64,000 nucleotides of DNA from Deltaproteobacteria bacterium (GTDB taxonomy: Bacteria; Myxococcota_A; UBA796; GCA-2862545). The stretch covers positions 1 to 64,000 of the forward strand of contig REDI01000047.1 of assembly GCA_007693595.1 (NCBI GenBank). The letters are read 5' to 3'. A program made the translations under genes and the position numbers. The notes below the pieces were generated by a model. It was not told where the DNA came from. It was given only the letters and a program-made list of their open reading frames with translations, and made no database searches. Shown in pieces: positions 22,080-46,232 of the stretch; the stretch's first letter is position 1, and every line of letters starts with the position of its first letter.

Positions 22080-23765
22080 TTGGTCATCCTGGGGATCGCC
22101 GATGGGCTTGATAGTGGCGCTGCGCTGGTCATCAACGGAGAGATCGTCGCGACGACGACCCAGGCCTCCCTGGACCGCGCCTCGCACTCACGGGTCTTCC
22201 CTTGGGGTGCCATGGCCGACGTGCTCGAGGCGGCGGGGCTCGGCCGGGCCGATGTCGACCAGGTCGCGGTCGCGGGCCGCTTCACGCCTCCGCTCGTACT
22301 GCGTCGCTACCCTGGGCTGCGCCGACTCGCGGGTGACGATCCCTTCTCGCCGGCCCTCGATGCCCACGTCGCGTATCAAGCCGCGTTGCGCTGGACCGGC
22401 TTTGGTTCCTTTCAAGAGGACATGACGGCAGAGTGGTTCTCGAAACAGCTCGACCGAAGGGGCTATCGCCCGCGACGGGTGCTCATGGTCGACATGCACC
22501 GCGCCCTCGCCGATGCCGCCTACCGTTGCCAGCCCCACGACGACGTGCTCGCTATCACGGCGCATCCCAAGGCCGACGGGGCGAGTGTGGCGGTCTTTCG
22601 AGGGAAGAGCGGTATGCTCGTGCCCCAGTTCCGGGACTCGGCGCTCTCGGTCCTGCATACGCACCTCCAGCGCTGCGCCGGTGCCCTCGGCTACGAGCCT
22701 GTGGCGGGCTTGCCAATGCTGTGGGCCGAGGCAGGTCGGGGGCGTCCTTCTCCCGACTTGGTCGAGCGTCTGGCCCGGCGATTGAGCTCGGTGGGACGGC
22801 GTCTCAGCCGACGGGCCTACCCCGTGCCCGACGATCTCCCTCTGGGACCCAGCGTTTACGATCGCCTGCGCGAGGCCGATCCCGCCATCGCCGCGGCCTC
22901 GGTTCTCGAAAACCTGGTCGATGCCCTGGGGGGTATGGTTCGGACGCACAGCCTTCGACACGGCGTCCGGCGCGTCGTGTTGGGGGGGGCCCTGTTCGAG
23001 AACGCACGCCTCGTCGCGCGCATCGCCGAGGGCCTCGATCTCGACGAGGTCTTCGTCCTGCCCGAGCCTGGATCTCGCTCCCTGCCCTTGGGGGCGGCGA
23101 GCGCCCCCGCAGGGCTCGCTCCCCGTCGGACCCGGGCGCCTGGGCATGGGCGCGCCTTTCAAGATGATCAGGCAGGCCTGGCCCTCGAGGCGGCGGGGAT
23201 CCGATCGAGCCTCTCGCTCGACAACCTCAAGGAAGCGGCCGGGATCCTTCACCAAGGTGGAGTGCTCGGCTGGTTTGTCGGCCGTGGCGGCGGCGGTCGA
23301 TGGGGCGGAGGCTCCCGCTCGGTGCTCGTCCGCGCGGATGATCGACGAGCGGTCGCCCAGGCGCGGGTCTGGCTTCAGCGCGATCCCCGCGAAGAGCCGG
23401 GCTGTGTCTGGGATGGGATCGACGGCTCGCTGCGCGGCGCGGAGCGGGTCGTCGATGCCCTCCGCCTCGGCGCGGTCGCGCTGCGGGCCGACGCCGACTT
23501 CGTGGAGCGATACCCGGCGGTCGTCGCACCTGACGGTCGCGTCTTGGCCAAGCGGCTCGACGCCTCCGATGAGCCGGAGCTCTTCGCCCTGGTCGCCGAG
23601 CTCCGCCGCCTTGGGGGGCCGGGTGCGTTGGCTTGCTGGCCTCTCGGTCTCGGCTATGAGCCGCCCGCCGCTCGCCCGGGCGATGCCGTTCGTGTCTGGC
23701 GGAATACCTCGATCAACGCCATGGTCCTCGGGGGGCACCTGGTCGTGCGTGGGCCCAAGAGGTGA
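22080..23765 (+). CDS. Carbamoyltransferase (NodU/CmcH) homologue lacking metal ligands
   Basis: A 561-residue protein with both domains of the O-carbamoyltransferase family: an ASKHA-type N-terminal part (ILGIADGLDSGAALVINGEIV, VVLGGALFENARL) and a YrdC-like C-terminal part (GWFVGRGGGGRWGGGSRSVL in place of GWx-GR-xEFGPRALGxRS). The Fe-binding residues of the family are missing: the HxxxH of DHHLAHAA is replaced by Asp138-Met-His-Arg-Ala-Leu-Ala, and the Asp in GDDGLALGAA by Ser332/Arg333 (PGSRSLPLGAA). Carbamoyl transfer is therefore doubtful. The start is TTG 22080, 2 bases after the preceding stop; no suitable ATG lies before the conserved beginning. It overlaps the protease start (GTGA). 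Confidence 0.8.
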   Translation: MVILGIADGLDSGAALVINGEIVATTTQASLDRASHSRVFPWGAMADVLEAAGLGRADVDQVAVAGRFTPPLVLRRYPGLRRLAGDDPFSPALDAHVAYQAALRWTGFGSFQEDMTAEWFSKQLDRRGYRPRRVLMVDMHRALADAAYRCQPHDDVLAITAHPKADGASVAVFRGKSGMLVPQFRDSALSVLHTHLQRCAGALGYEPVAGLPMLWAEAGRGRPSPDLVERLARRLSSVGRRLSRRAYPVPDDLPLGPSVYDRLREADPAIAAASVLENLVDALGGMVRTHSLRHGVRRVVLGGALFENARLVARIAEGLDLDEVFVLPEPGSRSLPLGAASAPAGLAPRRTRAPGHGRAFQDDQAGLALEAAGIRSSLSLDNLKEAAGILHQGGVLGWFVGRGGGGRWGGGSRSVLVRADDRRAVAQARVWLQRDPREEPGCVWDGIDGSLRGAERVVDALRLGAVALRADADFVERYPAVVAPDGRVLAKRLDASDEPELFALVAELRRLGGPGALACWPLGLGYEPPAARPGDAVRVWRNTSINAMVLGGHLVVRGPKR

Positions 23766-24505
23766 CCGGGTCCGCGCCCGAGGCTGGTGAGCCCACCGGG
23801 GAGTCCATCCCCAAGATCGGGCTCGAGATCCTCGTGCTGTGGCTGGTGGTCAACCTGATTATTCGAGGCGTTCGAGTGGTCTGGGAAGCGACGGGCTTCG
23901 AGCTGATCCTGGTCGCGGCGCCGATCCTCTTTCTGTACGCGCCAGTCTTGATGTGTCGTCTGCGGGGGGTGGACTCCTGGAGCTACCCCCTCGCCATCCC
24001 TCCGCTTCGGGACGGCCGCTTCTGGCTGCGCACGCTGGGGCTCTTTGGCGTGGTTGTGCTCGCGACGACAGCGCCATTCATCCTCGGCTATCACGCATGG
24101 CATCTCTATGTGCTCGGATCGGTAGCTCCCACGGTCGAGCTGCCCGTCGCCTTCCCGAGCAACCTCTTGCTCCTCATGGGCTACCACCTCTTCTTCGTCG
24201 CGATCCCCGAAGAGATCTTCTACCGCGGCTACCTCCAGACCCGCATCGACGAGGCCTTCTCGCCACGCATGAAGCTCCTGGGCGCTACCGTAGGGCCAGG
24301 CTTGATCCTCGCGACGATCCTCTTTGCCTTCGGACATTCGATCGTCGTCTTCCGTCCTTGGCATGTGGCGATCATCTTCCCAGGGCTCCTCTTTGCTTGG
24401 ATGCGCGCGCGCACGGGCGAGGTCATGGCGGGCGCCTTCTTCCACGCCTGGTGCAACGTCATGGTCACGACCCTCGATGTGATGTACGGTCTGCAAGAAC
24501 CCTGA
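23762..24505 (+). CDS. CPBP-family intramembrane glutamic protease (Abi/Rce1 type)
   Basis: A 247-residue polytopic membrane protein (about seven helices). Motif 1 is IPEEIFYRGYLQ with Glu150, Glu151 and Arg155; motif 2 is FAFGHS with His192; motif 3 is FFHAWCN with His228 and Asn232. All catalytic positions of the CPBP family are thus kept. The family cleaves substrates within the membrane: CAAX proteins, bacteriocin leaders, or MYXO-CTERM sorting tails (myxosortase). The start is GTG 23762, overlapping the previous stop. It is the last gene of the five-gene cluster. A MYXO-CTERM-like segment occurs in the 813-residue protein at 43009, which makes a sorting role worth testing. Confidence 0.9.
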   Translation: MTGSAPEAGEPTGESIPKIGLEILVLWLVVNLIIRGVRVVWEATGFELILVAAPILFLYAPVLMCRLRGVDSWSYPLAIPPLRDGRFWLRTLGLFGVVVLATTAPFILGYHAWHLYVLGSVAPTVELPVAFPSNLLLLMGYHLFFVAIPEEIFYRGYLQTRIDEAFSPRMKLLGATVGPGLILATILFAFGHSIVVFRPWHVAIIFPGLLFAWMRARTGEVMAGAFFHAWCNVMVTTLDVMYGLQEP

Positions 24506-41819: not shown

Positions 41820-42845
41820 ATGGGTTCATCATTGAGCATCGCGATCGCTGGAGCGACGGGAGCCATCGGCCAAGAGCTGATTCAGGTCCTCGATCGGGTG
41901 CCATGGCGCCCCGCGGAGCTCCTGCTCGCGGCCTCGCCGAGGACCACTGTGCCCAGCCTGGAGTTCGGCGACGAGCGCCTTTCGGTCGAAGATGCGGAGC
42001 ACCTGGATCTCGCGGCGGCTGACGCGGTGCTGCTCGCGGTGCCTCCGGCGGTTGCAAAGGAGCTTGGGGAGCGCGCGCTGGCCGAGGGGATCCTGACCAT
42101 CGATCTCTCGGGAGCTTTCGCAGAGGACTCCGATGTGCCGACCATCGTACCCTGGGTGAACCCCGAGCAGATCGCGGCCGTCGGGGCGCGTCAGGTCGTC
42201 GCGGTACCCTCTGCGGTGGCCTTGATGCTCGCCTCAGCCCTGGGTCCTTTGGCCCGAGCCGGCTTGCGAGGGCAGATCCATGCCACCGTGCTCCTCCCGG
42301 CCTCGGATCGAGGCAAGGGAGGTATCGAAGAACTCTCGCAGCAGGTCGTGAGCCTCTTCAACGCAGGGACGCCCCCCCGTCGGATCTTTCCTCAAGGACT
42401 GGCCTTCGACGTGCTTCCTGCGGTGGGGGCGATCCAAGACGATGGATGGACCTCCCGCGAACGCACCATCGCCACCCAGACTCAAGAGATGGTCGGAAGG
42501 GCCTTTCAGGTTCACCTCTCTCTCCTTCAGGTGCCTGTGTTCAGCGGCATCGGAGCCGACGTGCATTTGCGGCTAGATCGTCGGGTCTTGCCCGATCTGG
42601 TCGGGAAGCTGCTCTCGGACGGGGGCGTGAGGCTGATCGAGTCCGCCGAGGCCAGGTCTATGCCTAGGCTTCGGAAGGTCGAGGGGGAGCCCTTCGTGCA
42701 CGCAGCCAGGGTGCGGGCCGTCGGCAGCACGGGTCAGGAGCTCCAGCTCTGGCTCGGCATGGACAACCTCCGTGCCACCGCCACCTGTGCGGTGAGCTTG
42801 ACCGCCGCCCTCTTACGAGATCGGCTGCGAGCCCCTTCGCACTGA
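41820..42845 (+). CDS. Aspartate-semialdehyde dehydrogenase homologue without catalytic Cys (Usg-like)
   Basis: A 341-residue protein of the Asd fold: SIAIAGATGAIGQELIQVL is the NADP motif and the core AILTIDLSGAFA-like and LPASDRGKGGIEEL segments follow. In Asd the active-site Cys lies in NCT or NCS; the equivalent here is VPSAVALM with Ser131. Such Cys-less paralogues (Usg-1 in gammaproteobacteria) accompany but do not replace Asd, and their role is unclear. It could bind NADP and act structurally. AAGGAG lies 4 bases before the ATG. Its stop overlaps the first of two upstream repeats of the next promoter. Confidence 0.75.
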   Translation: MGSSLSIAIAGATGAIGQELIQVLDRVPWRPAELLLAASPRTTVPSLEFGDERLSVEDAEHLDLAAADAVLLAVPPAVAKELGERALAEGILTIDLSGAFAEDSDVPTIVPWVNPEQIAAVGARQVVAVPSAVALMLASALGPLARAGLRGQIHATVLLPASDRGKGGIEELSQQVVSLFNAGTPPRRIFPQGLAFDVLPAVGAIQDDGWTSRERTIATQTQEMVGRAFQVHLSLLQVPVFSGIGADVHLRLDRRVLPDLVGKLLSDGGVRLIESAEARSMPRLRKVEGEPFVHAARVRAVGSTGQELQLWLGMDNLRATATCAVSLTAALLRDRLRAPSH

Positions 42846-43008: not shown

Positions 43009-45450
43009 ATGATTTCTACGCTGATGCTCACGATGTCGATCGCCTTCGCTGCTGGCCCCGAGCGCCACGCGGCCACCGTCGACGTGGGCTCGTCGATCGT
43101 CCGCAACCTCTCGTCAGATTCCTCAGGCGAGGTGCTGGCCATGGTCGTGGGCTCTTCCGCGGTGGTGCTCGACGTCCGAACCTGGCAGCAGACACGGTTG
43201 AACCCCTGTACGGTCGCAGGGGCGACCGTGGTCGAAGGCGTCGGCCAGGAGCTCGAGGTCTGGGTCGGCTGCAACGACGGCACCGTTCGGGCCTTCGCCT
43301 ACGTCGAGGGTAGCATGGTCCCGATCGACGCGGTGGGGGAAGAAGGGGTGGTGCAGGCGCTCAACCGGCGGGTGCTCGCCATGCATTCTGCGCCGATCGG
43401 CACCGGCGATCGCCGAGTCTTCGCCGTAGGCCAAGAAGAGGGGGTCGACCAGCTCCGGGTGGCGATGATCGATCCCGAAGACGGCGCGATCGCGCAGACT
43501 CTCTTCATCGGGCTCGAGGGATACCACTCGAGCACGGTTGGGCCGGCCTTCATCTACATCACGCATGGAAACGCCTTCATCAGTACCATCAACCTCCAGA
43601 GTCTCCTTCCCCAGTTCAACCTGGGCGGCGCCGGAGTGGAGTTCACCAGCGTCTCGGCGACCGCGCGACAGACCGCGCTGGTCGTGAGTCGCCTCGATGA
43701 GGGCATGGTGGCCGAGCACAACGGCTTCACCTCGATGTATACGCCGGTGCTCACCCCCGCCCGGAACATCCGGGCGGTCGGGACTTTTCTGGCGGATTCC
43801 GAGGACGATGGCTACGTCATGCTCGCCTACGACGATCGGATGGTGGTCTACCGCAGCCCGGATGGTGGGCTGCCGGAGTCTTCGGCGCGGACCTTTTCCA
43901 TCGAGGGTTCGATCCGTGAGCTCCACACCACGGTCGGTGGCTATGCCTTCGGCTCCACCAATACGGGGAGCTTGCTCGTGTTCACCGACCGACCCTGGGT
44001 CGATGACCTGATGCTCTCGGCGGAACGGGTGATCACGGGTGATATCTTGGAGCTGTCCTTCACGACCGACACGGAGGGCACCTATGAAGTCGCCCTCGGC
44101 GGCACCTACCGGCAAGGGGGTGAGATCCTGGCCTCCGGGAGTGCGGCGCCGGGATCCGTAGAGATCGAGCTCCCCGTCACCGAGTGGAGCGAGGGTTTTC
44201 AACGGGTCTTCGTCCGGCTCACCGACAGCCGCGGCCGGATCGGCCACGCTGGTGCGGAGCTCCTGGTCGACTCCCGGCCGCGCGCGCCCGCGCTGAGCCA
44301 GAGTTCCGTCACCTTCGATGATCGGCGCCTGCGGCTCGCCTTTCCTGCGCTCGCCGCGACCGACATCGAGCGGTACACCCTCTATGTGACCACCGAGCCC
44401 TTTTCGCCTCAAGACTATGAAGAGGGCGGACCGAGCTATGTTGGCCCCGACGATCTCGATGCCCCCATCGAGGTCCCTGCGCCCGACTCGGCCACCGTCT
44501 CTGTGGAGATCGCGCCTGTGACGAACGACTTGACCTATTATCTTGCGGTGAGGGCGACGGATGAAGCCGGCCTGGAGGGAGCGATGAGCGATGTAGTACA
44601 AGGCCGGCCTCGACCGACCCAGAGCGCCTCTCAGCTGGCTGGCGAGGGCGGCGGCTTCGACTGCGACGGCACGGGCGGCGTGCGCGGAGCGACCGCCCTG
44701 GGGCTGGGGCTCGGCGCGCTGTTGCTCAGGACCCGTCGTCGCGGAGGGGCGATCCTCGCCCTAGGGTTGGCGGTGGGTCTGGCCTTCTCGGTTCCGGTGG
44801 CCCACGCCGCCGACGAAGATGGCGACGGCGTCGACGACCGCCTTCAGCTCACCGATGACTTCAAGGGGGATCTGACCGAAGCGTGGGCGAACATCCAGGT
44901 GCGGTACGGGATCATCACCCTCCGCGACGAGAGCCTTACCCAGGTCTATGGCGCGGGGGGGAACAACGTCCTCCACGTCGAGTTCGGCCCCCAGATCTAT
45001 CGCTTTCTCGAACTGAACTTCGGTGCGGGGCTCTTTCAGGAGCTCGGCTTCACCGTCGACAGCCAGGGCAACCCCGGCAGCCGTCGCACCATGATCACCG
45101 CCGTGCCCCTCGCGGTCTCGCCGACCCTCCGGCTCCACTTCATCGATGAACAGTTCATCGTTCCTTACGCGAGCGCGGGGCTCGACTGGTGGCTGTGGAA
45201 CGAGCAGGTCGACAGCATCGCCGGCGGAAAAGATGGCATCTCTGGGTCGAAGTTCGGCTACCACTGGTCGCTGGGCGCGAACCTGCTGCTCGACACCTTC
45301 TCGCGTGACCGTGCCAGCATGCTCGAAGCTCAGACCGGCATCAACGACACCTGGCTCACCTTCGAGTATCGACGCCAGTTCATCGAGGGCGAACAAGGCT
45401 TCTCCTTCTCGGGTGACATCTTCACCGCCGGGCTCAAGATCGACTTCTGA
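43009..45450 (+). CDS. Secreted beta-propeller/Fn3-like protein with internal MYXO-CTERM-like segment fused to outer membrane barrel
   Basis: An 813-residue protein that reads as two exported proteins in one frame. Residues 1-15 are a signal peptide. Residues 20-350 are beta-rich repeats (ARHAATV-, MVVGSSAVVLDV, VFAVGQEEG) suggesting a propeller, and 340-540 contain Fn3-like strands. At 545-578 GEGGGFDCDGTGG (Cys552), a short hydrophobic stretch and RTRRR form a MYXO-CTERM-like sorting tail. Directly after it, ILALGLAVGLAFSVPVAHA looks like a second signal peptide, then DEDGDGVDD and a barrel domain ending FTAGLKIDF (terminal Phe). A TTG or GTG at codons 587 or 589 could start the second part separately. 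A sigma-54 promoter precedes the gene. Confidence 0.75.
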   Translation: MISTLMLTMSIAFAAGPERHAATVDVGSSIVRNLSSDSSGEVLAMVVGSSAVVLDVRTWQQTRLNPCTVAGATVVEGVGQELEVWVGCNDGTVRAFAYVEGSMVPIDAVGEEGVVQALNRRVLAMHSAPIGTGDRRVFAVGQEEGVDQLRVAMIDPEDGAIAQTLFIGLEGYHSSTVGPAFIYITHGNAFISTINLQSLLPQFNLGGAGVEFTSVSATARQTALVVSRLDEGMVAEHNGFTSMYTPVLTPARNIRAVGTFLADSEDDGYVMLAYDDRMVVYRSPDGGLPESSARTFSIEGSIRELHTTVGGYAFGSTNTGSLLVFTDRPWVDDLMLSAERVITGDILELSFTTDTEGTYEVALGGTYRQGGEILASGSAAPGSVEIELPVTEWSEGFQRVFVRLTDSRGRIGHAGAELLVDSRPRAPALSQSSVTFDDRRLRLAFPALAATDIERYTLYVTTEPFSPQDYEEGGPSYVGPDDLDAPIEVPAPDSATVSVEIAPVTNDLTYYLAVRATDEAGLEGAMSDVVQGRPRPTQSASQLAGEGGGFDCDGTGGVRGATALGLGLGALLLRTRRRGGAILALGLAVGLAFSVPVAHAADEDGDGVDDRLQLTDDFKGDLTEAWANIQVRYGIITLRDESLTQVYGAGGNNVLHVEFGPQIYRFLELNFGAGLFQELGFTVDSQGNPGSRRTMITAVPLAVSPTLRLHFIDEQFIVPYASAGLDWWLWNEQVDSIAGGKDGISGSKFGYHWSLGANLLLDTFSRDRASMLEAQTGINDTWLTFEYRRQFIEGEQGFSFSGDIFTAGLKIDF

Positions 45451-45467: not shown

Positions 45468-46232
45468 ATGGAGCGTCGCTTCAAGCTGGTTCTCGAGTAT
45501 GACGGGGCTGACTTTGTGGGCTGGGAGGTCCAGCGGTCGGGGCGGTCGGTTCAGAGCGAGATCGAGGGGGCGCTGGCCCGGATCCTCCAGCATCCGGTTC
45601 GAGTGGAGGTGAGTGGGCGAACCGATGCGGGGGTGCACGCCGAGGGGCAAGTGGCGGCGTTCACGACCCGAGTGCACCGCAGCACGGCGCGGATCCGTGA
45701 TGGGTTGAACGCGGTGCTACCCCTCGATGTGGCGTGTCGCGAGGTGCAGCAGGTTCCGCTCGACTTCGACCCGCGCCGACAAGCGAGAACCAAGCACTAT
45801 CGTTATCGCTGGCTCGACAGCAGGGTGAGGAGTCCACTACGCCGAGGGCGAGTCTGGCAGGTCCGAAGGCCACTCGATGCCGAAGCCATGGCTGTGGCCT
45901 GTGGCGCATTCGAAGGAACCCACGACTTCTCTGCGTTTCGGGCGTCGGGCTGCGGAGCTCGGACGACCGTTCGGACCTTTCCGGCGTGGAGCGTGCGGCG
46001 GGTCGATGACGAGATCTGGCTCGACGCTCATGGCCACGGCTTTCTGCGTCACACCATCCGAATCGTGGCGGGGACCTTGGTCGAGGTGGGCAGGGGCGCG
46101 CGTGAGGCTGCGTGGGTGAGCGAGGTCTTGCGATCGGGGTCCAGGGCCATGGCCGGGCCGACCGCGCCGGCCCATGGGCTGACGCTGTTGGGGGTTCGCT
46201 ACGACGGCTCGGTGGCTTCAGAACCGTCGTAG
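45468..46232 (+). CDS. truA: tRNA pseudouridine(38-40) synthase
   Basis: A 254-residue TruA. The catalytic Asp53 lies in SGRTDAGVHAEG, and LEYDGADFVGW is the conserved opening, although the usual GWQ reads GWE here. HDFSAFRASGC and GHGFLRHTIRIVAGTLVEVG are the further TruA motifs. It modifies U38-U40 of tRNA anticodon arms. AGGAG lies about 7 bases before the ATG; the gene ends 80 bases before the convergent FYDLN-acid gene. Confidence 0.96.
   Translation: MERRFKLVLEYDGADFVGWEVQRSGRSVQSEIEGALARILQHPVRVEVSGRTDAGVHAEGQVAAFTTRVHRSTARIRDGLNAVLPLDVACREVQQVPLDFDPRRQARTKHYRYRWLDSRVRSPLRRGRVWQVRRPLDAEAMAVACGAFEGTHDFSAFRASGCGARTTVRTFPAWSVRRVDDEIWLDAHGHGFLRHTIRIVAGTLVEVGRGAREAAWVSEVLRSGSRAMAGPTAPAHGLTLLGVRYDGSVASEPS

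Follow-up and report, generated by a model that had tools for sequence, protein, structure and literature searches.

The open reading frame at 43009..45450 (+) in the window, the 64,000-nucleotide stretch of DNA analysed here, encodes a protein of 813 amino acids (P0001) that probably represents a polyprotein, one precursor that is cut into two cell-envelope proteins. The probability of this reading is put at about 0.7. It is based on the single frame, on the conservation of its parts, on the occurrence of fused and separate homologues at one conserved locus, and on the lack of a restart signal in the fused forms. Of the three marks of such a polyprotein (one frame, an internal signal peptide and two mature products), the first two were seen in the sequence of P0001, the signal peptide as a prediction. 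Its parts are arranged in the order signal peptide 1, propeller, FN3-like domains, a segment consisting of Cys552, a helix and RTRRR, signal peptide 2 and a barrel ending in Phe813.

Architecture of the protein and its junction

The initial annotation described two exported proteins joined in one frame, and its map of P0001 holds: translation is uninterrupted across all 813 codons, and Cys552, the short hydrophobic helix, RTRRR (574-578), the signal-like segment (579-600) and the barrel with Phe813 at its end are at the positions first noted. The first signal peptide (aa 1-15, MISTLMLTMSIAFAA followed by G; 43009..43053, +) was recognized from the sequence and from relatives. It is short and contains no Lys or Arg, and this absence of positive charge counts against the export model. 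In this family signal peptide 1 is generally very short and often devoid of Lys/Arg, and the second signal peptide has a strong Arg cluster. The next part is a WD40/YncE-like beta-propeller (approximately aa 17-330; 43057..43998, +), modelled by AlphaFold2 with pLDDT values mostly of 85-95; Foldseek matched this N-terminal part to WD40/YncE propellers with target TM-scores of ~0.6-0.69. It is followed by beta domains (approximately aa 331-540; 43999..44628, +) that, from their strand pattern in the AlphaFold2 model and the alignment, may be read as FN3-like and that form the best-conserved stretch of the N-terminal half. Residues 424-578 showed a weak match to NF045522, the MXAN_2561 family (29.2 bits, cut-off 150).

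The C-terminal part is a predicted 8-stranded outer-membrane beta-barrel ending in Phe (aa 601-813; 44809..45447, +), as indicated by NF040596, AlphaFold2 and Foldseek. NF040596 (MXAN_2562 family) matched the C-terminal part alone with E=1.6e-23 and 83.5 bits, below the cut-off of 100, and aa 642-813 of the whole protein with 79.8 bits. By these scores the barrel is an NF040596 homologue below the formal cut-off. Modelled alone, it showed 8 strands with a pLDDT of 88.4 and a pTM of 0.80, and the predicted structure resembles OmpA, NspA, Ail and OmpX (Foldseek). No significant hit was obtained when PDB sequences were searched with the barrel profile. The barrel region of one homologue (L029) carries an insertion of DxDGDGI-type acidic repeats. 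Since the two halves of P0001 match NF045522 and NF040596 respectively in NCBIfam, they correspond to two families with consecutive Myxococcus locus tags. Neither half was matched in a Pfam search, and a plasmid search gave no match.

AlphaFold2, run on an alignment of 25 fused proteins (A1), yielded two confident bodies (~17-551 and 623-813) and a region of low confidence at 552-622 holding two helices (561-574 and 582-592). Each half thus folds alone and only the junction is disordered, which supports a precursor of two products. The model and the separate-gene homologues described below exclude one continuous fold, an outcome that the initial annotation had considered.

The first helix of the junction belongs to an internal MYXO-CTERM-like tag (aa 545-578; 44641..44742, +), recognized from the sequence, the alignment and the AlphaFold2 model and consisting of GEGGGFDC552, helix 561-574 and RTRRR. 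G548, G549 and C552 are invariant in alignment A1 and R577-R578 are conserved in at least 90 % of its proteins. The Cys, helix and Arg cluster plan noted at the outset is therefore present, with an invariant C552. The tag of P0001 itself scored only 9.0 bits against TIGR03901, below the cut-off of 20, so that it was filed as MYXO-CTERM-like, related by alignment, and not as a formal member; the aligned tag segments of relatives scored up to 25.6 bits (L009) and 28.2 bits (L037). Arg558 is located close to the start of the short tag helix and counts against the model. Furthermore, 235 residues follow the tag in P0001, so it does not occupy the C-terminal position that characterizes MYXO-CTERM. 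The 29 other MYXO-CTERM matches in the source genome have 0-49 residues behind them, 27 of them 0-9; with these matches at or near the C-terminus, the internal tag is an exception in this genome. Two MYXO-CTERM proteins of the source genome, C88:38418-38498 (L148) and C92:5018-5110 (L163), have 49 and 22 residues, respectively, after the Arg cluster.

Directly behind the tag are the h- and c-regions of the second signal peptide (aa 579-600, GGAILALGLAVGLAFSVPVAHA followed by AD; 44743..44808, +), assigned by a sequence rule and seen as helix 582-592 in the AlphaFold2 model. Its putative signal peptidase site is located after Ala600, between VAHA and AD. The Arg cluster of the tag would serve as the n-region of this second signal peptide. 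A hydrophobic, uncharged stretch with a signal-peptidase-like site, called by a simple rule and not by a trained predictor, follows the Arg/Lys cluster in all 68 fused homologues; the same pattern was found in 53 of 1360 control windows (3.9 %) drawn from their own N-terminal parts. In one fused homologue (L065) the second signal peptide is separated from the barrel by a long Asp/Ser/Gly-rich repeat (GDSAGDDSAGDD...).

The tag in front of signal peptide 2 is not always of the MYXO-CTERM type. A CFI-box-type tag was found at this place in families f11, f25, f30, f33, f35 and f38, in frame with the second signal peptide and barrel at loci L069, L076, L083, L086, L088, L093, L094, L096, L099 and L102. 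The L102 tag scored 104.8 bits against NF041770 (CFI-box-CTERM; cut-off 40), and the other CFI-box tags were assigned by motif. In the barrel tree, CFI-box (L088, L096) and MYXO-like (L107, L109) fused tags of f30 occur within one clade, some members having the CFI-box and others a short MYXO/GGIII-like tag; the short tag may be a CFI-box with a deletion. This replacement of MYXO-CTERM by CFI-box in some fused lineages indicates that the junction conserves a sorting tag and not a particular linker. None of the papers in the literature collection searched mentions CFI-box-CTERM, MXAN_2561 or Bd0486 by name.

Fused and separate forms of the gene

The protein was found in all 38 genomes of the same order, including the source genome, and is encoded by a single fused frame in 36 of them, representing 6 families and 26 genera (34 junctions were read directly, and those of G017 and G034 were taken from search coordinates). 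The length of an open frame by itself was never taken as evidence of fusion, since these genomes are GC-rich and contain many long frames that are spurious. The two remaining loci, L027 and L061 of one genus of this order, have an in-frame TAA at the junction. They appear to represent a natural fission, the barrel being translated from a start of its own and carrying its own signal peptide. A genome-contig search with P0001 gave no match, and one with the barrel alignment found nine MAG records; these records (L126-L134), which represent some of the same genomes, originate from several metagenome projects run by different groups.

NF040596 was found in 211 of the 286 genomes of the phylum. Junctions were read for loci L001-L120 (119 different loci), revealing 68 fused forms with an in-frame tag, 47 separate genes and 4 unassigned cases; the ambiguous loci L098 and L113 were kept out of the fused count and L063 and L066 were included manually. 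The homologues with the two parts as separate genes for which the initial annotation advised looking thus make up 47 of the 119 loci. Fused forms outside the source order were found in 13 families (f11, f13, f16, f23, f24, f25, f30, f33, f35, f38, f39, f46 and f47). In separate pairs the tag is carried by the upstream gene. The upstream stop overlaps the barrel start by 4 nt in 38 separate pairs with an identified upstream partner (36 when a hydrophobic stretch is also required), and 28 of these 38 have a Shine-Dalgarno sequence of at least 5 nt. On the barrel tree, a quick tree with 67 rows for fused and 47 for separate forms that does not tell gains from losses, the fewest changes between the fused and separate states amounted to 10. 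L029, one of the 68 fused rows, was left out of this tree for its insertion.

The neighbourhood of the gene is also conserved. The upstream neighbour (41820..42845, +), presumably an asd-like gene, was found, by tblastn of its frame against the loci, to be conserved at this place in front of both fused genes and gene pairs. The downstream neighbour (45468..46232, +), which we take to be truA-like, lies close by throughout the phylum, whether the gene is fused or a pair (tblastn, 90 loci). Most likely the fusion does the job of the 4-nt stop/start overlap of its relatives, namely to ensure that a surface protein and its barrel partner are made one to one. We are inclined to go further and regard the family as a phylum-wide polyprotein that shuttles repeatedly between two one-to-one modes, overlapping genes and precursor, in which the Arg tail of the tag would double as n-region and either MYXO-CTERM or CFI-box-CTERM would fill the slot.

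Processing of the precursor

The proposal that cleavage of the precursor yields a propeller at the surface and a barrel in the outer membrane gains support from the separate-gene homologues and from the presence of a tag and a predicted signal peptide 2 in every fused copy. Signal peptide 1 would take the propeller/FN3 part through Sec. Judged from topology, the tag helix would then stop transfer and the Arg cluster would stay in the cytoplasm. The sequence features are in place for this cluster to act as n-region, with the second signal peptide (579-600) re-entering Sec as a hairpin. Signal peptidase I would cut after Ala600, and the freed barrel would insert into the outer membrane. Cys552 may be lipidated, and a myxosortase may cut behind or near it. 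The propeller part would be left lipid-anchored and be transported to the cell surface, and a hairpin peptide of ~48 residues would be discarded. In the published MYXO-CTERM model the tag is located at a free C-terminus, whereas in P0001 it is followed by a second membrane segment.

Myxosortase is known to cut MYXO-CTERM proteins in a Cys-dependent manner, and their lipidation and transport by the type II secretion system (T2SS) have been proposed (PMC11980579). A candidate processing enzyme, a myxosortase-family CPBP protease of 247 aa (23762..24505, +), is encoded in the same window ~19 kb upstream of the fused gene. It scored 120.2 bits against Mrt_core (NF040914; cut-off 100), and 159.5 and 122.6 bits against MrtP and MrtX; the MrtP, MrtX and MrtC models all remained below their cut-offs. 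The source genome also harbours GspD of a T2SS (474.9 bits).

Should neither cut, or just one of the two, take place, P0001 would stay a single chain in which propeller and barrel are joined by the hairpin. The conserved open frame, the divergent tag of P0001 (9.0 bits) and the status of both cuts as predictions from sequence speak for such a chain, which we nevertheless regard as unlikely. A barrel held by an inner-membrane hairpin cannot easily reach BAM, and all 68 fused homologues have kept a signal-peptidase-like site. Moreover, the homologues work as two genes, even where an in-frame TAA separates the parts, and the region of low confidence at 552-622 lies between two confident bodies in the AlphaFold2 model.

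The initial annotation also raised a restart of translation at TTG587 or GTG589, by which the barrel would be made by re-initiation and the upstream product would read on or be trimmed. Codon 587 is indeed TTG and codon 589 GTG (44767..44775, +), so that start-like codons are present, and separate-gene relatives do use stop/start coupling with a strong Shine-Dalgarno sequence. However, no Shine-Dalgarno site was found before codons 587/589, and the protein made from codon 587 (MAVGLAFSVPVAHA) would lack a basic n-region. Nor is there a stop codon ahead of them, and hence no terminating ribosome to restart. A 5-nt Shine-Dalgarno sequence ahead of any in-frame junction start codon was found in 3 of the 68 fused homologues, compared to 28 of the 38 separate pairs. 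In 60 of the 68 no ATG is placed such that the second signal peptide is kept, and 36 of the 68 have no ATG, GTG or TTG so placed, a number to be read as about half because the script misplaced a few junction sites (L010, L017, L018, L076 and L096). Restart at these codons is therefore disfavoured and appears quite improbable.

A passenger at the front, a barrel at the end and a C-terminal Phe are also what a type V autotransporter-like protein would have, its barrel carrying the N-terminal domain to the surface. A 12-stranded translocator (or equivalent) and a single signal peptide would be expected for such a protein. The barrel has 8 strands and is OmpA/OmpX-like, the parts are predicted to be separated by a cytoplasmic loop rich in Arg and by a second signal peptide, and relatives encode these parts as separate genes; the autotransporter reading was rejected as highly improbable. 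Finally, an artefact near 44740 may be dismissed, be it a missed stop or a frameshift, which the initial annotation had named as possible errors, or a false assembly join: the source genome is a draft of 97 contigs and a false join would fall at the tag end, where its other MYXO-CTERM genes stop, but the same single frame, with conserved protein sequence across the junction, was found in 35 other, separately assembled genomes.

Related systems and significance

Polyproteins that contain an export signal in their interior are rarely found in bacteria. The classical example of a bacterial protein that is cleaved at such a signal is the cytochrome b/c1 precursor encoded by fbcH of Bradyrhizobium. 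Like the proposed precursor it is cut into two envelope proteins, the cut in P0001 being predicted; its products differ in being inner-membrane respiratory subunits, with no C-terminal sorting tag and no outer-membrane barrel.

The closest counterparts of the two halves are MXAN_2561 and MXAN_2562, which have consecutive locus tags and belong to a MYXO-CTERM-anchored family (NF045522) and an outer-membrane barrel family (NF040596). Both halves of P0001 match these families, which share the conserved neighbourhood of the fused gene across the phylum. P0001 differs from them in being one open reading frame with a much longer N-terminal part that includes an added propeller, and neither of its matches reaches the curated cut-off (29 against 150 bits and 83.5 against 100 bits). 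In CFI-box-CTERM proteins (NF041770) of several families the tag stands at the place of MYXO-CTERM and is fused to the same barrel, whereas P0001 has the MYXO-CTERM-like type.

Open reading frames with internal MYXO-CTERM motifs are rare; MXAN_5598 of Myxococcus xanthus has such a motif between an adhesin-like part and a barrel plus OmpA domain, and a fusion of two genes with processing of the N-terminal part was suggested by the authors (PMC11980579). As in P0001, the tag stands between a surface part and an outer-membrane barrel. MXAN_5598 however belongs to another family (adhesin, barrel plus OmpA domain, near ftsA/ftsZ), and it is presented as one case in a discussion, which does not describe a phylum-wide alternation of fused and separate genes (PMC11980579). 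The open reading frames of TraA and TraB have a four-base overlap (PMC3325183), like most separate pairs of the present family, and likewise encode a MYXO-CTERM surface protein and an envelope partner, in that case with an OmpA domain. TraA and TraB form an outer-membrane exchange pair, and differ in being unfused and in having unrelated domains (PA14, Cys-rich repeats).

One published precedent, MXAN_5598, was thus already known. From the sequences compared, the new aspects appear to be another family, conservation over a whole order, many changes between fused and separate forms, and a second kind of tag. The fused form is conserved over the order and appears to have been gained or lost at least 10 times in the phylum, and the separate-gene relatives are natural controls. 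With this family it can be tested directly whether enzymes of the myxosortase type process internal tags, and the CFI-box fusions are a possible handle and substrate set for the processing of the CFI-box-CTERM tag. The fusion itself suggests that a surface protein and a small outer-membrane barrel are tightly coupled one-to-one partners.
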